A stretch of DNA of 64,000 nucleotides, taken from Salegentibacter mishustinae (GTDB taxonomy: Bacteria; Bacteroidota; Bacteroidia; Flavobacteriales; Flavobacteriaceae). Positions within the stretch are counted from its first letter, which is position 1. The number at the start of each line of letters is the position of its first letter. The position numbers and the translations under genes are program-made. The DNA lies in assembly GCF_002900095.1 (NCBI RefSeq), contig NZ_LLKN01000002.1, positions 2,418,001-2,482,000 of the forward strand, read 5' to 3'. The notes beneath the pieces are model-generated. The model ran no database searches. It had not been told where the DNA came from and saw only the letters and a program-made list of their open reading frames with translations. Of the stretch, positions 14,570 to 59,927 are shown piece after piece.

Positions 14570-14599
14570 CTTCACCCTAAACTTGTTTCAGGGTCTAAG
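14570..14599 (+). repeat. Solitary REP-like hairpin beside ettA
   Basis: CACCCTAAACTTGTTTCAGG continuing to GTCTAA matches one arm of the repeats at 48871-48951 and 55501-55562: (C)x-CTGAA-CTTG-TTTCAG-x-TCTAA. Its arms ACCCT(A/G)AA and TTCAGGGT pair with one mismatch. It abuts the ettA stop codon. Confidence 0.55.
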
Positions 14600-20515: not shown

Positions 20516-20539
20516 GGCTGTCTTATACAGCCTTTTTTT
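20516..20539 (+). terminator. Terminator after the M1 metallopeptidase gene
   Basis: GGCTGT-CTTAT-ACAGCC followed by TTTTTTT. It is the plain form of the GGCTGT-type stem that is interrupted by REP-like repeats at 48842 and 55477. Confidence 0.88.
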
Positions 20540-46406: not shown

Positions 46407-48833
46407 ATGAAAATTTCATATAACTGGCTTAAACAATTCATTAAACTTCCTGAAGCTCCAGAAGCAACCGGAGAACTACTTACTGATCTTGGACTTGAGG
46501 TGGAAGGCCTGGACAGTTTTCAGAGTATTAAAGGTGGTCTTGAAGGGATTGTAGTTGGCCATGTGCTAGAATGTAAAAGTCATCCTAATGCCGATAAATT
46601 ACAACTTACCAATGTAGATCTGGGCAATGGCGAGCAGGTGCAAATCGTTTGTGGCGCGCCTAATATTGCAGCAGGACAAAAGGTTCCGGTTGCCACAATT
46701 GGCACTACCCTTTTCGGCGAAAATGGAGAGGCATGGCCAATTAAAAAAGGCAAGATTAGAGGTGAAGCCAGTTTTGGAATGATTTGTTCTGAAAAAGAAC
46801 TTGGGCTTGGCCAAAGCCATGAAGGAATTATGGTGATGAAAGATGACCTTATTCCAGGAACTCCCGTAGCTGAAATTTTTGAGGTAGAAAACGACCAGGT
46901 TTTTGAAATAGGACTAACACCAAACCGTGCCGATGCCATGAGCCATTGGGGCGTTGCCAGAGATCTTAAAGCCGGTTATACCCAACAAGGGAAAAATCTG
47001 GAACTTATCACTCCTTCGGTTAGTAGTTTTCATGTAGATAATAGAAGTCTTAAGATCCAGATACAAGTTGAAGATTCGGCGCTTGCTCCCAGATATTGCG
47101 GAGTAACGATCTCAGGGCTTAAGGTTGAAGAATCTCCAAAATGGCTTCAGAATAGATTAAAAGCAATAGGCCTTGGCCCAAAGAATAACGTGGTAGATGC
47201 TACTAATTACGTAATGCACGAGCTTGGGCAACCGCTACACGCATTTGATGCCGGAAAAATTGCCGGTAATGAAATCAATGTAAAAACATTAGAAAAAGGG
47301 ACAAAATTTACCACCTTAGATGATGTAGAACGTGAACTCCACGAAGAAGATCTTATGATCTGTGACGCCGAAAAACCACTGTGTATTGCCGGTGTATTTG
47401 GTGGAGCCACAAGCGGAGTTACCTCAGCTACCACACAAATTTTCCTGGAAAGCGCTTATTTTAATCCAGTAAGTGTTAGAAAAACCGCAAAAAGACACGC
47501 TTTGAACACCGATGCTTCTTTTAGATTTGAACGGGGAATTGATCCTAATATTACGGAATATGCTTTAAAACGTGCTGTGCTTTTAATTACTGAAATTGCC
47601 GGCGGCGAAGTAACAAGTGATATTGATGATCTTTACCCGAAGAAAATTGAAGACTTCCAGGTTTTTCTAACTTTCGATAAAGTAAATAAACTTATTGGCG
47701 AAAACCTTCAGCAAGAAACCATTAAATCTATCCTTGCTTCTCTTGAAATTCGTGTAAATAATGTTACCGAAACCGGGATGGGCCTTACTATTCCATCTTA
47801 CCGAGTAGATGTGCAGCGCGAAGCCGACGTAATTGAAGAGATTTTAAGAGTTTATGGTTATAACAATATTAAGTTTGGTGAAAAGCTAAATGCCTCAGTA
47901 GCCAATTCTTCTAAATTTGAAGATTACCGACTTCAAAATTTAATCGCCAACCAGTTAGTAGGGCAAGGTTTTTACGAAACTATGGCTAACTCACTTACCA
48001 CACCTGCCTATACCGAATTGAGTGAGCAATTGAATGCCTCCCAAAATGTAAAAATGCTGAATCCTTTAAGTCAGGATTTATCAGTTTTACGCCAATCTAT
48101 GTTGTATTCTGGTTTGGAATCTGTGAGTTATAATATTAACAGGAAACGCAGCGATTTAAAATTATTTGAATTCGGAAAAACCTATCACGATTTTAACGGT
48201 AGCCGGGTTGAGAACAAACATCTTTCTATTTTTATTAGTGGAAACCGAAATGCAGAACGCTGGAATTCAACTTCAGAAAGAACAGATTTCTTTTTATTGA
48301 AAGGTATTATCGAATCTATTTTTCAAAGGTTGGGTATTGAAAATTTAAAACCTTCCGCAGTAAAATCTGATGTATTTTCTGAAGGACTTATATTTTCTTC
48401 TGCAAAAAGTAATTTGGTTTCATTTGGGGTAATTCGTAAAAAGGTATTGAAGCATTTTGATATTGAACAGGAGGTATTGTATGCCGATTTTAACTGGGAT
48501 GCTTTATTAGAAGTTACCAAAGCCAGAAAGACCAGCTTTAGCGCTATTCCTAAATATCCAGCGGTTAGACGTGATTTTGCCCTTCTATTAAACAATAACG
48601 TTTCTTATGAAGAAATTGAGCAAATCGCTCTAAAAACAGAGAAAAAACTTCTTAAAGAAGTAGACCTTTTTGATGTTTACCAGGGAAGTAATCTTCCGGA
48701 AGGAAAGAAAAGTTACGCGGTAAGTTTTAAGTTTCAGGATGAAAATAAAACCCTTACCGATAAGCAGGTAGATAAAATGATGAAAAAGCTTCAGCACAGG
48801 TTTGAAGAAGAACTTCAGGCAGAATTGAGGTAA
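46407..48833 (+). CDS. pheT: Phenylalanine-tRNA ligase beta subunit
   Basis: An 808-residue PheT of normal length. It starts MKISYNWLKQFIKL; the tRNA-binding/EMAP-like domain is at about 40-150 (VGHVLECKSHPNADKLQLTN, VCGAPNIAAGQKVPVA), then B3/B4 editing domain (RYCGVTISGLKVEESP, NVVDATNYVMHELGQPLHAF), B5 (DIDDLYPKK and after), the catalytic-like core (LRVYGYNNIKF, LNPLSQDLSVLRQSMLYSGL) and the C-terminal ferredoxin-fold anticodon-binding domain (IPKYPAVRRDFALLLNNNVS). It charges tRNA-Phe together with PheS, whose gene is not adjacent. Confidence 0.97.
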   Translation: MKISYNWLKQFIKLPEAPEATGELLTDLGLEVEGLDSFQSIKGGLEGIVVGHVLECKSHPNADKLQLTNVDLGNGEQVQIVCGAPNIAAGQKVPVATIGTTLFGENGEAWPIKKGKIRGEASFGMICSEKELGLGQSHEGIMVMKDDLIPGTPVAEIFEVENDQVFEIGLTPNRADAMSHWGVARDLKAGYTQQGKNLELITPSVSSFHVDNRSLKIQIQVEDSALAPRYCGVTISGLKVEESPKWLQNRLKAIGLGPKNNVVDATNYVMHELGQPLHAFDAGKIAGNEINVKTLEKGTKFTTLDDVERELHEEDLMICDAEKPLCIAGVFGGATSGVTSATTQIFLESAYFNPVSVRKTAKRHALNTDASFRFERGIDPNITEYALKRAVLLITEIAGGEVTSDIDDLYPKKIEDFQVFLTFDKVNKLIGENLQQETIKSILASLEIRVNNVTETGMGLTIPSYRVDVQREADVIEEILRVYGYNNIKFGEKLNASVANSSKFEDYRLQNLIANQLVGQGFYETMANSLTTPAYTELSEQLNASQNVKMLNPLSQDLSVLRQSMLYSGLESVSYNINRKRSDLKLFEFGKTYHDFNGSRVENKHLSIFISGNRNAERWNSTSERTDFFLLKGIIESIFQRLGIENLKPSAVKSDVFSEGLIFSSAKSNLVSFGVIRKKVLKHFDIEQEVLYADFNWDALLEVTKARKTSFSAIPKYPAVRRDFALLLNNNVSYEEIEQIALKTEKKLLKEVDLFDVYQGSNLPEGKKSYAVSFKFQDENKTLTDKQVDKMMKKLQHRFEEELQAELR

Positions 48834-48841
48834 TTATATAC

Positions 48842-48978
48842 AAAATTGGCTGTTTAAACTTTAATCTTTACGTCAATCTGAATTTATTTCAGGTTCTAAC
48901 TTGAACTAAGTTTCAATTTAGCTTAGACTCTGAAACAAGTTCAGAGTGACGTTAGGAGTATTTAAACAGCCAATTTTT
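48842..48978 (+). repeat. REP-like double hairpin nested in a terminator stem (pheT end)
   Basis: Outer arms AAAATTGGCTGTTTAAA (48842-48858) and its exact complement (48961-48977) form a 17-bp stem followed by T-rich sequence, a terminator for pheT. Between them lie two inverted arms: 48871-48899 (CGTCA-aTCTGAA..TTTCAGgt-TCTAA) and 48923-48951 (TTAGA-CTCTGAA..TTCAGAG-TGACG). The right arm is itself a hairpin ACTCTGAA/TTCAGAGT; the left is CTGAA/TTCAG. A similar composite lies at 55477-55590. Confidence 0.75.
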
Positions 48979-48996: not shown

Positions 48997-49584
48997 TTAT
49001 GGAAATTCTTTAAAAATCTCATCTACATAATCTCTTATATCTCTTTCTAATCTTTTTGAACCAATTTCTTCATCGGCAGTTCCACGCCATAAGATTTCGT
49101 TTGTTCTTCTATCTATAAGATCTATAACAATAGATTTTTCTTTATAAGGAAGTTGTTTAACCTTATCTGCTGCCGTAATTCGCTGAACGGTGAAATAGTT
49201 GTCATAAGTATAATCTTCATAGTATGGCCCTATATAAAGCCCGGGGCGATAGTATGAAAAATTGGTATAAACAGGATCTGCATTTACATCTGCTATTCTT
49301 TCATCAAACATTGCGTGAACATACACTAGCACATCTGGCCGGCTATTATCTATAGCATAACCTTCGCTAGACATATTATTGTTTATAGTAGATATAATCA
49401 CTTCGTGAATGCGATTATTATCATAACCCGTATCCTTAATAGTATCCTTATTAGGTAAATAAGAATACGTATTGTACTTCTTTATTTTTTTTGCAGAGTC
49501 TTTAGAAATATTGCTTCCAGAACCACAAGACATCATAAAGGCTCCCGCCATAATTAATGTGATAAGTAATTTTACTTTCTTCAT
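48997..49584 (-). CDS. DUF4136 family lipoprotein
   Basis: A 195-residue lipoprotein with lipobox MMSC (Cys20) and the DUF4136 pattern: an early KIKKYNTYSYLPNKD strand, PDVLVYVHAMFDE, an aromatic Tyr-rich loop (NFSYYRPGLYIGPYYEDYTY) and KSIVIDLIDRRTNEILWRGT near the C-terminus. Function is unknown; it probably faces the periplasm from the outer membrane. It converges with pheT at the nested-terminator repeat. Confidence 0.87.
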   Translation of the reverse strand: MKKVKLLITLIMAGAFMMSCGSGSNISKDSAKKIKKYNTYSYLPNKDTIKDTGYDNNRIHEVIISTINNNMSSEGYAIDNSRPDVLVYVHAMFDERIADVNADPVYTNFSYYRPGLYIGPYYEDYTYDNYFTVQRITAADKVKQLPYKEKSIVIDLIDRRTNEILWRGTADEEIGSKRLERDIRDYVDEIFKEFP

Positions 49585-52993: not shown

Positions 52994-55453
52994 ATGAGAA
53001 AAATTTTTTTAAGTCTTTTCAGTTTAATGCTGAGTTTTCCTGCTCTCTTTGCACAGGAAGATCTAACCTACCAAAAACCACCCGAGGAAATCCTTGAACT
53101 GGTAGATGTACCACTAGCTCCTTCTACAATTTTAGATAGCGATGGTGAAATGATGGTATTCCTATATCGCGACCAATACAAATCTATTGCTGAACTTAGT
53201 GAAGAAGAACTAAGACTTGGCGGATTAAGAATTAACCCGGTAACAAACATTAGTAGTCGCGCCAGGTATTATAATAACCTGGAGGTTAAACCTATTGATG
53301 CCGAAACTCCAACCCAGGTAAAAGGTTTACCCGAAAATGCCCGCCTGGCAAATTTTAACTGGTCTCCAGATGAAACAAAAATAGCTTTTACCCATACTAC
53401 AAATAACGGGGTAGAGCTTTGGGTTATGGATTTGGAAAATGGCCAGGCCAAAAAGTTGACCGAAGCCAAGCTTAACGCGAATATGCGCGATGTGATTAAC
53501 TGGTTTAAAGATAATTCATCGGTATTAGTTAAAATGCTTCCTGAAGATCGTAAAGCTCTAATCAATACCGAAACTGCTATTCCTACAGGACCTACAGTTT
53601 CAGTAAGTGATGGGAAAGAAGCCCAAAATCGTACCTACCAGGATTTACTTAAAAATCCTAACGACGAATATAATTTTGAACAATTAGCTCGGTCAGAATT
53701 AGTAAAAGTAAATTTAGACGGTACTTCAGAGAAATGGATGGACGCTAAAATGTACAACAGCGTTTCATTCTCTCCAAACGGAGAATATGTGATGGTGAAT
53801 CACCTCAAAAAGCCTTTTTCTTATTTGGTTCCCTATTACAGGTTCCCTTCAGAAACAAATATTTACTCCATTGATGGAGATTTGGTAAACCAGGTAAACG
53901 ATGAGCCTTTATTGGAAGATCTACCCAAAGGTTTTATGTCTACTCAAACAGGTAGAAGAAATGTACAATGGCGCAGCGACAAACCGGCCACGCTGGTTTA
54001 CGTAAAAGCTTTAGATGAAGGAGATCCTGAAATTGAAGTTGATTTTAGAGATGAAGTTTTTGTTTTAGAAGCTCCATTTAGCGGGGAAGGAAATTCTATC
54101 CTGAAAACCCAGGATCGTTTTTCTGGAATTACCTGGGGAGATGATGAAATTGCTATTGCCTATGATTATTGGTGGAATACACGTAATACAAAAACCTATG
54201 TTTTTAATCCATCTGATGCTTCAGAAGAGCCGGAAGTGATCTTTGACAGGAATTATCAGGATCGTTACAGCGACCCTGGAAGTTTTGTGACCACAAAAAA
54301 TGATTTTGGCCAGAGCATTTTAAAACTGGATGGTGAAGATGCTTTTCTGCTTGGTGACGGTTATAGCGAGGAAGGACAATTTCCTTTTGTAGATAAAATT
54401 GACCTGGAAGATGGCGAAACCGAACGCCTATACCAATCTGAATACAACGACAAGAAAGAGACTCTTGTAGAGGCTTTAGATATTGAAGATGGAGAAATCC
54501 TGGTAAGGATAGAATCGGCTACCGAATATCCTAATTATTATATTAGAGACATAAACGATAAAGAAGACCTAACACAAATCACTTCTTTTGAAAATCCTTT
54601 TAAAAGTCTTGAAAACGTAAGTAAAGAAGTAATTACTTACGAGCGCGAAGATGGGTTGGAACTAAACGGAACACTTTATTTACCTGCCGGTTTTGACAAA
54701 GAAAACCCTGAAGAACATCCTATGATCGTTTGGGCTTACCCAAGAGAATACAAGGATAAAAATTCGGCTTCACAGAATACTTCAAACGCAAACGACTTCA
54801 CTTATCCTTATTATGGCTCGCCAATCTATTGGGTAAACCGAGGTTATGTAGTATTAGACGATGCTTCTTTCCCAATTATTGGAGAAGGTGAAGAAGAACC
54901 AAATGACAGCTTTAGAAAACAACTGGTTGCAAATGGAAAAGCAGCAATTGATGCTGTTGCCGAAATGGGTTATATAGATCGTAATCGTGTTGCAGTTGGT
55001 GGCCATAGTTATGGCGCTTTTATGACGGCAAACCTGTTATCCCATTCTAATCTTTTTGCGGCCGGGATTGCCAGAAGTGGTGCTTATAACAGAACCCTAA
55101 CTCCTTTCGGTTTCCAGAGTGAAGAGAGAAGCTATTGGGAAGCTCCGGAGGTTTATTATAATATGTCTCCTTTTATGCACGCCGATAAAATGAAAACCCC
55201 GCTTTTATTGATTCACGGGGAAGCAGATAATAATTCGGGAACTTACCCTATGCAAAGTGAGCGTTATTTTAACGCCTTGAAAGGACTGGGCGCTACTGCA
55301 CGTTTGGTAATGTTGCCAAAGGAAAGTCATGGTTACAGCGCCAAAGAATCTGTTCTACATGTACTTTGGGAGCAAGACCAGTGGCTAGAACAATACGTGA
55401 AGAATAAAGAAAAGGCAGGAAATATTGAAACTGCAGAGGAAATGAAAGATTAA
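52994..55453 (+). CDS. Exported S9 family prolyl-oligopeptidase-type serine peptidase
   Basis: An 819-residue enzyme with a signal peptide (SLFSLMLSFPALFAQ, cleavage near 21), a beta-propeller region at about 60-530 (FNWSPDETKIAFTHTT, VSFSPNGEYVMVNH) and a C-terminal alpha/beta-hydrolase domain. The triad is Ser672 in GGHSYGAFM, Asp745 in GEADNNSG and His779 in ESHGYS. The arrangement resembles glutamyl endopeptidase-like S9 enzymes. Likely a periplasmic peptidase. The leader carries a hairpin (TCGCA/TGCGA with GTAA/TTAC, 52916-52961) followed by TTTTTATTTT; its role is unknown. Confidence 0.92.
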   Translation: MRKIFLSLFSLMLSFPALFAQEDLTYQKPPEEILELVDVPLAPSTILDSDGEMMVFLYRDQYKSIAELSEEELRLGGLRINPVTNISSRARYYNNLEVKPIDAETPTQVKGLPENARLANFNWSPDETKIAFTHTTNNGVELWVMDLENGQAKKLTEAKLNANMRDVINWFKDNSSVLVKMLPEDRKALINTETAIPTGPTVSVSDGKEAQNRTYQDLLKNPNDEYNFEQLARSELVKVNLDGTSEKWMDAKMYNSVSFSPNGEYVMVNHLKKPFSYLVPYYRFPSETNIYSIDGDLVNQVNDEPLLEDLPKGFMSTQTGRRNVQWRSDKPATLVYVKALDEGDPEIEVDFRDEVFVLEAPFSGEGNSILKTQDRFSGITWGDDEIAIAYDYWWNTRNTKTYVFNPSDASEEPEVIFDRNYQDRYSDPGSFVTTKNDFGQSILKLDGEDAFLLGDGYSEEGQFPFVDKIDLEDGETERLYQSEYNDKKETLVEALDIEDGEILVRIESATEYPNYYIRDINDKEDLTQITSFENPFKSLENVSKEVITYEREDGLELNGTLYLPAGFDKENPEEHPMIVWAYPREYKDKNSASQNTSNANDFTYPYYGSPIYWVNRGYVVLDDASFPIIGEGEEEPNDSFRKQLVANGKAAIDAVAEMGYIDRNRVAVGGHSYGAFMTANLLSHSNLFAAGIARSGAYNRTLTPFGFQSEERSYWEAPEVYYNMSPFMHADKMKTPLLLIHGEADNNSGTYPMQSERYFNALKGLGATARLVMLPKESHGYSAKESVLHVLWEQDQWLEQYVKNKEKAGNIETAEEMKD

Positions 55454-55476: not shown

Positions 55477-55590
55477 AGGCTGTTTGAGAAGCTCTTCTTC
55501 CGTCAAGCTGAACTTGTTTCAGCTTCTAACATCATAGATCCTGAAACAGGTTCAGGATGACGATTTTAAGTCTTCTCAAACAGCCTTTTT
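55477..55590 (+). repeat. REP-like double hairpin nested in a terminator stem (S9 peptidase end)
   Basis: Outer arms AGGCTGTTTGAGAAG (55477-55491) and its exact complement (55572-55586) form a 15-bp stem followed by TTTT. Inside are inverted arms 55501-55529 and 55535-55562, each beginning CGTCA and ending TCTA(A) when read inward. Each arm is also a self-hairpin: AAGCTGAA/TTCAGCTT on the left and ATCCTGAA/TTCAGGAT on the right. Confidence 0.8.
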
Positions 55591-55691
55591 TAATTCAGTG
55601 TTTATGAGAAAATTTTTCGGAAATCCTGGTTGAAAATTCCTATTTGAAACGGAAGAATTTAGCATCTCATTTAGCGACCAAAAATAGGAAA

Positions 55692-55757: not shown

Positions 55758-57068
55758 TTATGACATATAATCGCGGAACCTATTAACTTCTATCTTTGCT
55801 TTGAGATCGTGCAGTAAATTATATAATCCAAAAAATGTGCGGTTTATATAAAGAAAGTGTTTACTTCCTCTATTTCCATTCATTTTTCGCAATTCGGTAT
55901 CCTTACTATATTTTTCGCTGAGTGCTGTAATTGAATTCCAAAAGCTTTCGTCTGCAAAATCAAAAGTCTCTTCGTGAAATGGACCTGTGAATAAGCTCAG
56001 CATCTCATAAAACAACTCTGAAAAATATTTGATCTCTCGCTCAGAATCATCTTCTCGTAAAATTTCTAATTGAAAAAGTTTCTCGTTGAAAAATTCAGGA
56101 TTATCAATATTTTCTTTTTTTGCCAGTTCAAAGTAAGGCACATAGAAATCATCTGGCACCTGCTTGATACAACCAAAATCTATAGCAATTAGATTAGCTT
56201 CTTTATCAATAAGGAAATTTCCCGGGTGAGGATCGGCGTGCACTTCTTTTAGACCGTGCATTTGGTACATATAAAAATCCCAAAGTGCCTGCCCAACCTT
56301 ATTCGCTTTTTCCTGGTCTGTATTTTCCTTTGCAAATTCACTTAAATGTTTCCCATTCATCCAATCCATCGTGATTATTCGCTCACTGGATAGATCTTCG
56401 TAATATTTAGGAAATTTAAGATTAGGAATATGTGCACAGGCTTCAGAAATTTCTTTACTCTGTTTTACTTCTAGAATGTAATCAGTTTCCTCGAGCAATT
56501 TTCCTTCAACTTCTTTAAAATACTTTGCGGAATCCTTACCCTGAAGATTAAACATTCGGGTAGCAATAGGTTTAACCATTGCAAGATCTGAACTTATACT
56601 ATCTGCAACGCCGGGATATTGAATTTTCACAGCAAGTTTTTTCCCATCTTTTTCGGCTTTGTGAACCTGGCCAATGCTGGCAGCATTCACAGATTCGCTC
56701 GCAAATTTATCGTATAATTCTTCAGGGTAAGCTCCGTTATATTTTTTAAATGTTTTTCTAACTAAAGGAGCAGAGAGCGGCGGCACACTAAATTGCGCCA
56801 AACTAAATTTCTCTACATAGGCATTTGGCAAAAGGCTTTTTTCCATAGAAAGCATTTGCGCGACTTTAAGAGCACTTCCTTTTAAGCTTTTCAGGCTATC
56901 ATAAATATCATCGGCATTATCCTTATCTAATTCGTCTCTTGTAAAGTCAGAATTAAAAGCTTTTTTGCTGTAATATTTAAGGTAATTGCCTCCTAACTTC
57001 ACTCCGGTTTGCATCAGTTTTGAAGTTCGGCCAATTTTGCCGGTTGGTATGTTATCTATTGTTTTCAT
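55758..57068 (-). CDS. ABC1/UbiB-like atypical kinase
   Basis: A 436-residue member of the ABC1/UbiB/ADCK family. The KxGQ motif appears as K68-V-A-Q71 (LKVAQMLSMEKSLLP), a Gly-to-Ala change. The Ala-rich loop SVNAASIGQVHKAE, the catalytic Lys in LAVKIQYPGV, the catalytic loop VHADPHPGNFLID and the metal Asp in IAIDFGCIKQV are intact. No membrane helix is evident. Family members support isoprenoid quinone synthesis; with menaquinone genes 30 kb away that is possible but not shown. It lies 21 bp downstream of the TetR-type gene. Confidence 0.88.
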   Translation of the reverse strand: MKTIDNIPTGKIGRTSKLMQTGVKLGGNYLKYYSKKAFNSDFTRDELDKDNADDIYDSLKSLKGSALKVAQMLSMEKSLLPNAYVEKFSLAQFSVPPLSAPLVRKTFKKYNGAYPEELYDKFASESVNAASIGQVHKAEKDGKKLAVKIQYPGVADSISSDLAMVKPIATRMFNLQGKDSAKYFKEVEGKLLEETDYILEVKQSKEISEACAHIPNLKFPKYYEDLSSERIITMDWMNGKHLSEFAKENTDQEKANKVGQALWDFYMYQMHGLKEVHADPHPGNFLIDKEANLIAIDFGCIKQVPDDFYVPYFELAKKENIDNPEFFNEKLFQLEILREDDSEREIKYFSELFYEMLSLFTGPFHEETFDFADESFWNSITALSEKYSKDTELRKMNGNRGSKHFLYINRTFFGLYNLLHDLKAKIEVNRFRDYMS

Positions 57069-59893: not shown

Positions 59894-59927
59894 AAGGCCT
59901 GGAAACTTAACTTTCCAGGCCTTTTTA
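59894..59927. terminator. Bidirectional terminator between htpG and hybrid kinase
   Basis: AAGGCCTGGAAA / TTTCCAGGCCTT, a perfect 12-bp stem with a 6-base loop, then TTTTTATTTT on the plus strand. Confidence 0.92.

Follow-up and report, generated by a model that had tools for sequence, protein, structure and literature searches.

Small REP-carrying mobile elements of Salegentibacter seem to target the stop hairpins at gene ends, removing them and installing a hairpin made of their own two ends

How does a mobile hairpin come to lie inside the stem of an intrinsic terminator, and how can this arrangement occur twice within a single stretch of 64,000 nucleotides (the window)? Two CGTC-tagged REPs in head-to-head orientation are enclosed by a perfect outer stem with a T-run after it, both at positions 55477-55591 (stem of 15 bp) and at 48842-48978 (17 bp; Table 1). 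A preliminary description of this DNA left two readings side by side: either the element targets terminator loops, or stem and repeat together are one composite unit that spreads between genes and supplies termination as it does so. Having compared 15 Salegentibacter genomes, we suggest, with a probability of roughly three in four, that the nested structure is a MITE of ~110-155 bp, in which terminal inverted repeats of the IS1182 type surround a CGTC-REP dimer, and which swaps the terminator of its host for a stem formed by its own ends.

Both sites are built in the same order. First come an arm of 15 or 17 bases, a stretch of about 9-12 bases and a REP half; after a spacer there follow the opposite REP half, another 9 bases or so, the complementary arm and the T-run. 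Both sites sit between convergent genes, and each has the features of an intrinsic terminator, in that a G+C-containing stem with a T-run behind it lies at the 3' end of a gene. When the plus strand was folded as RNA, energies of -63.2 kcal/mol (55477) and -54.8 kcal/mol (48842) were obtained, and none of 200 dinucleotide shuffles was as stable at either site (z about -11). The predicted minimum is a single long hairpin in which REP pairs with REP; two separate hairpins are not predicted. Coordinates, folding and shuffles all bear out the nested arrangement as it was originally described. Two details of that description did not survive: the element GGCTGTTT, seen in both stems, is not constant, the arm sequence differing between copies, and the hairpin GGCTGT-CTTAT-ACAGCC at 20516, taken for the uninterrupted form, is an ordinary terminator, the REP-free counterpart in the window being 59896-59921.

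Table 1. Features of the two nested sites, their neighbouring genes and related hairpins (window positions)
Feature	Position	Strand	Basis or comparison
Left outer terminator stem arm, site 48842 (AAAATTGGCTGTTTAAA)	48842..48858	+	sequence
CGTC-tagged REP half 1, site 48842	48871..48892	+	sequence
CGTC-tagged REP half 2, site 48842, reverse orientation to half 1	48930..48951	-	sequence
Right outer-stem arm (TTTAAACAGCCAATTTT, from 48961) and start of T-run, site 48842	48961..48978	+	sequence
Left outer terminator stem arm, site 55477 (AGGCTGTTTGAGAAG)	55477..55491	+	sequence
CGTC-tagged REP half 1, site 55477	55501..55522	+	sequence
CGTC-tagged REP half 2, site 55477, reverse orientation to half 1	55541..55562	-	sequence
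Right outer-stem arm and T-run, site 55477 (CTTCTCAAACAGCCTTTTTT; arm alone CTTCTCAAACAGCCT, 55572-55586, T's reaching 55591)	55572..55591	+	sequence
Phenylalanyl-tRNA synthetase beta chain (pheT), upstream of site 48842	46407..48833	+	Pfam B3_4, tRNA_synthFbeta, FDX-ACB
DUF4136 protein gene, downstream of site 48842, convergent	48997..49584	-	domain annotation
S9 family peptidase gene, upstream of site 55477	52994..55453	+	domain annotation
ABC1 atypical kinase gene, downstream of site 55477, convergent	55758..57068	-	domain annotation
Short-loop terminator GGCCTGGAAA-CTTAAC-TTTCCAGGCC, REP-free	59896..59921	+	orthologous locus in eight other species: REP pair between the same arms
Lone REP half, decayed and un-nested, just past an ordinary terminator	14571..14591	+	sequence
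Ordinary short-loop terminator GGCTGT-CTTAT-ACAGCC, no REP link shown	20516..20532	+	sequence

The inner repeat has the form CGTC-ATCCTGAA-CTTGT-TTCAGGAT, with AAGCTGAA variants, and occurs in head-to-head dimers that match the definition of CGTC-tagged REPs by Di Nocera and co-workers, as given in the accessible part of PMC3733652. The CGTC tag, an 8-bp stem that begins with A-T pairs (8-9 bp by the family definition) and a loop of 5 bases (4-5 by the definition) agree, as do the outward-facing tags of the dimers, the location at gene 3' ends and the occurrence in Bacteroidetes. The three-base tail is CTA here, while the CGTC-REP tails in the same text mostly, although not all, fit CCA. The window's genome (G000) belongs to Salegentibacter, its S9 peptidase being 98% identical to that of S. 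salarius and 96% to that of S. holothuriorum, the closest named records. It contains 158 REP halves at up to 2 mismatches, compared to 1 for a reversed control pattern. Head-to-head dimers predominate, as they do in the definition: the 75 REP sites assembled in this genome comprise 38 outward-tagged (+-) pairs, 2 further ones with a third half, 33 single halves and 2 in the -+ arrangement.

No dedicated transposase for CGTC REPs is reported in the accessible text of PMC3733652. A RAYT/Y1 transposase was considered as the mover and rejected, as Y1_Tnp occurs in 14 of the 15 genomes irrespective of REPs, and REPs are found at just 2 of 30 Y1_Tnp loci. The REPINs mobilised by RAYT, according to the available parts of PMC3116915 and PMC2817692, are likewise REP dimers spreading as non-autonomous units, but they bear a GTAG tag and belong with a linked, REP-flanked Y1 transposase gene, unlike the CGTC-tagged repeat of Salegentibacter. 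In S. maritimus (G005), an insertion sequence of the IS110 family (model NF033542, 157 bits, cut-off 140) has an end that adjoins REP halves (..ATCAG/CTTGACG and /GATGACG, the slash marking the junction), at L363-L366 (contigs C14, C21, C27 and C23, in about the first 1.2 kb) and at L372. Because its end adjoins REP halves, this RNA-guided element seems to take CGTC-REPs as its target, and it was therefore discarded as the mover of the unit; the use of other REPs as targets by IS110 has been described previously (PMC1525189, accessible part). A second repeat of ~100 bp, with copies mostly 92-98% identical, is numerous in S. holothuriorum (G012) and S. maritimus, where it neighbours REP units (e.g. 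L368:2233-2334, on G005:C11).

Among 108 distinct REP pairs, part of which were drawn from loci found through an arm pattern, complementary arms are present at a score of at least 14 in 57 and of at least 12 in 59; for Markov-shuffled flank pairs (n=864), 2.7% reach a score of 14 and 8.5% a score of 12. The sequences of the arms are diverse (GGCTGTTTGAGAAG, GGTCTGAGAAG, ACCGTTTAGAA, GAGTTTGTTTG, GGCCTGGAAAG and others), and 39 of the 57 units have 5 T within 9 bases past the right arm, the remaining 18 not. It is conceivable that ordinary terminators and ordinary REPs coincide by chance, and that selection for stable 3' ends has preserved the combination. REPs in general favour gene 3' ends (PMC3733652, accessible text), and the armed units of G000 do lie at such places (11 convergent, 7 codirectional and 0 divergent, n=18; for arm-less pairs 6, 17 and 1, n=24). 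We give this explanation hardly any credence, however, as more than half of the 108 pairs have arms at a score that so few shuffled flanks attain, and as the units are homologous from end to end.

The outer arms do not always accompany the double hairpin. In an unselected set of 78 pairs (G000 sites and syntenic stretches, not chosen by arms), arms with a score of at least 12 are found in 38 and none in 40, and for G000 alone arms at score 12 are found in 18 of 44 pairs, with 26 lacking them; within G000 most copies thus lie without outer arms, and the unselected set comes close to this. With 40 of 78 unselected dimers arm-less, REP pairs must spread or persist in another way too. Some arm-less pairs were gained at non-terminator positions, and one (G000:C2:803084) retains one good arm and one decayed arm. 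A further arm-less pair, at position 383836 of the G012 stretch and at L328 (G013:C4), with an empty allele in G000, is flanked by direct repeats of ~15-25 bases that are not paired in G000; these are possibly a target duplication left by a different mode of gain.

The boundaries of the unit can be read from S. maritimus. The sequence AGGCTGTYTGAAAAGT, at up to 1 mismatch, occurs 43 times in this species, 25 times in S. holothuriorum, 6 times in G000 and twice in G001. In 30 such loci that were read, both REP halves lie beside the arm in 21, one half in 5 and none in 4, with 4 mismatches allowed for the halves. The right arm is present in 9 of 10 examined S. maritimus copies, and these nine are 129-154 bp long, with a mean pairwise identity of 0.79 inside (minimum 0.48, gaps counted as differences) and of 0.33 and 0.31 in the 40 bases beyond either end. 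As the copies are alike inside and unlike outside, the arms are the ends of a repeated unit. With its discrete ends, its several copies in unrelated flanks and its lack of a transposase gene, the unit as seen in these nine copies has the make-up of a MITE.

The arm of the S. maritimus unit, GAGGCTGTCTGAAAAG, recurs as the left end of an insertion sequence that belongs to the IS1182 family. Genome G004 has this left end, starting GAGGCTGTCTGAAAAGGCAGCC, where orthologues of one S. maritimus locus carry a terminator, and G002 has it at another terminator; in both, the 16-base IS end is identical to the unit arm, and the recent copies in S. maritimus and S. holothuriorum match it at 16/16 positions (left end). 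The IS1182 left end forms a short hairpin of its own, with T's after it. A close relative of this IS is complete in S. maritimus, with the left end GAGGTTGTCTGAAAAG and a transposase of 511 residues (467.5 bits versus the IS1182 model, cut-off 270) that contains the domains DDE_Tnp_1_6 and DUF772. Among the unselected pairs, an arm at most 4 mismatches away from the IS end is found in 14 of 38 armed and 3 of 40 arm-less pairs, compared to 13 of 4000 random genomic places. The arms in the window differ from the 16 bases of the IS end by 3 mismatches (55477) and by 6-7 (48842), and the 48842 arm alone is not recognisable as an IS1182 end. The suggestion that stem and repeat form a composite unit spreading between genes is supported by end-to-end conserved S. 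maritimus copies with unrelated flanks and by arms that are shared with IS1182; that the unit also supplies termination is likely in view of stem and T-run.

The complete S. maritimus IS1182 is 1717 bp long and has A-rich and T-rich flanks. It sits exactly where G000, G012, G010, G014, G002, G009, G004, G003 and G001 carry the terminator AGGTTCAGC..GCTGAACCT (G007 differs); in S. maritimus the hairpin is absent, and there is no target duplication. In G013, this same terminator carries the right end of an IS1182 that points the other way. Both junctions of a terminator replacement by IS1182 are visible at this one locus, and one junction is visible in G004 and in G002. The search of the 15 genomes gave 14 IS1182 hits in G013, 10 in G004, 8 in G001, 2 in G002 and one each in G005, G011 and G007, with more distant single hits in G014, G009 and G006 and none in G000, G012, G010, G003 and G008. 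REP dimers are present without any IS1182 hit in G000 (22), G012 (54) and G010 (48), and conversely G001 has its 8 hits and 0 dimers; the two counts being discordant by genome, the present distribution of the IS does not track that of the dimers. A lone IS1182-like left end with a hairpin and T-run, and with no transposase hit in the locus, is found at L361 (G012:C5:838857), and is perhaps an IS relic in S. holothuriorum. For the IS1182 copies at L445 and L452 (G013), the left flank resembles, by eye, the 3' end of a tRNA gene, which suggests tRNA terminators as further targets.

Orthologous loci with and without the unit show what it does upon arrival. There are 13 comparable loci, each with an armed unit in one genome and a unit-free orthologue in another, tallied by eye; one further S. 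maritimus locus, the right side of which is not alignable, stands outside this tally. At 9 of the 13, the unit stands where the orthologue has a different resident hairpin, the outer A-run and T-run being largely kept, i.e. it has inserted as the IS does, replacing a stem-loop without target duplication; this is not displayed at the other 4. The nine are window sites 48842 and 55477 (versus outgroup species), a unit in G009 (versus six genomes with GGTCATTTC-type hairpins and G005 with one of another kind), G012 365501 (versus G000), a degenerate unit at G005 50560 (versus seven genomes), a unit shared by G005, G012 and G014 (versus GCCAGCT..AGCTGGC in G000, G013, G002, G009 and G010), and units from G009:C12, G002:C1 and G012:C10. 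Of the notion that the element targets terminator loops, the terminators stand and the loops, at most loci, do not, since the whole resident hairpin is replaced at these nine; two others show kept arms, and in the last two (L398 and L365) no hairpin is clearly visible in the empty allele.

The two loci at which the same arms occur with and without a REP are window 59896 and L207, and they speak for a rival history, in which it is the REP dimer that moves, entering the loops of terminators already in place, so that the arms belong to the host site. At L207, the unit is filled in G012, G002 and G014, while the same GGCTGTTTGA arms enclose a short loop in G000, G004 and G006; as G006 has the REP-free form but no REP dimers, the arms there may predate the REP. 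The many arm-less pairs in the unselected set would also fit. Window 59896 is less telling: it is REP-free in G000 only and filled in eight species, and since outgroups carry another hairpin, its G000 allele is most simply read as a loss of the interior. Moreover, the arms are unlike the resident hairpin at the nine loci above and are part of the amplified unit in S. maritimus. We have thus rejected loop targeting by the REP as a general rule, and consider it unlikely as a rival, which it stays through two loci.

A survey of one arm type leads in the same direction. GCTGTYTGA arms spaced 78-108 bases apart form 53 palindromes, in 9 of the 15 genomes and in none of the five without REP dimers; judged by eye on the first 80 bases of each, all of them appear REP-bearing. 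With a short loop, the same arms form 16 palindromes in 11 of the 15 genomes, and the five REP-dimer-free genomes account for just 3 of these. If REPs merely filled GCTGTYTGA terminators, many empty ones would be left in REP-free genomes; there are few, which argues against filling. The arm TGTYTGA was absent among 148 and 190 short-loop terminator-like hairpins in two 0.4-Mb stretches.

Once in place, the units change further. Relative to the first species listed (at 48842, relative to the window copy), 3 of 9 species have the interior of 48842 inverted between unchanged arms; for 55477 the count is 1 of 8, and for 59896 it is 5 of 8. At 48842 the locus-specific spacer is inverted as well, so this is a true inversion and no replacement by another copy. 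Loop inversion across inverted repeats of 12-17 bp is thereby recurrent at the orthologues of all three sites. Two-sided changes in the outer stem between species are few at these three loci, at most one per species and locus, and as covariation they would support the stem weakly.

That such inversions demonstrate strand exchange between arms is a point in favour of a history without any transposase, where template switching or gene conversion would overwrite one terminator hairpin with another that shares its A-runs, T-runs and a few stem bases; the retained A- and T-runs at the flanks fit this too. We nonetheless find it quite improbable, considering that the end sequence of the unit is an IS1182 end, that a complete IS1182 makes a like replacement, and that copies are also found at places without a subsequent T-run (L339, L345).

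We thus return to terminator replacement by a MITE with IS1182-type ends, and envisage it as follows. An IS1182-type transposase, acting in trans, would recognise a stem-loop as the target, in most cases the intrinsic terminator that follows a gene. The element would take the place of the hairpin, which is lost without target duplication, while the A-run and T-run remain as flanks. In the RNA, the paired terminal repeats together with the retained T-run would then make up a new terminator. Copies might later diverge, invert between their arms, or drop their interior to become short-loop terminators. Of these steps, we infer the mobilisation in trans, and the older, diverged copies in the window presumably arose by the same replacement. 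Judging by its stem and T-run, the new stem would be expected to terminate transcription.

The mode of transposition is already known from IS1272; the variant and its REP cargo are new. According to the accessible part of PMC5678879, IS1272 targets inverted repeats of 21-85 bp, the stem-loop disappears without any duplication of the target, and the terminal repeats are 16 bp long. TnSha1 carries IS1272, and as described in the available text of PMC4923244, several of its target hairpins are terminators confirmed by RNA-seq, with both orientations found at one target. These elements of the IS1182 family thus share with the Salegentibacter case an inverted-repeat target, often a terminator hairpin, that is deleted wholly or partly, the missing target duplication, the 16-bp terminal repeats, insertion in either orientation and the transposase family. 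What moves in these sources, however, is either a complete IS or a fabI transposon, in staphylococci, whereas the Salegentibacter unit is 110-155 bp long, gene-less, found in Bacteroidota, and has a REP dimer inside and ends able to pair as a new terminator stem. The pneumococcal SPRITE, RUP and BOX and the Porphyromonas gingivalis BrickBuilt MITE are also small mobile repeats that lie close to Rho-independent terminators or look like them, but the accessible parts of PMC10969869 and PMC4596501 do not describe a resident terminator being swapped for the element's own ends. For the CGTC-REPs of PMC3733652, the accessible text does not contain the word 'terminator', nor does it describe nesting in IS1182-type ends. 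A literature search, for which subscription papers were mostly outside reach, returned no report of an IS1182-type MITE replacing terminators, or of REPs in terminator loops.

Our reading joins two threads that have been separate so far, the CGTC-REPs, left without a transposase in the paper that defined them, and the IS1182 family with its replacement of stem-loops. As a tentative extension, to which we give rather less than even odds, CGTC-REP dimers may spread, at least in Salegentibacter, as cargo of IS1182-type ends by a self-renewing replacement of terminators. If this is true, the stem of own ends that has been installed is again a stem-loop, and hence a target for the next copy, and host terminators would turn over through transposition as well as through mutation. 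This also offers a reason why REPs at gene ends may do little harm, in that the element can put another stop signal in place of the one that its insertion destroys. Two ideas become testable in this way: that terminators are renewed by mobile DNA, and that inverted repeats are targeted by shape rather than by sequence.
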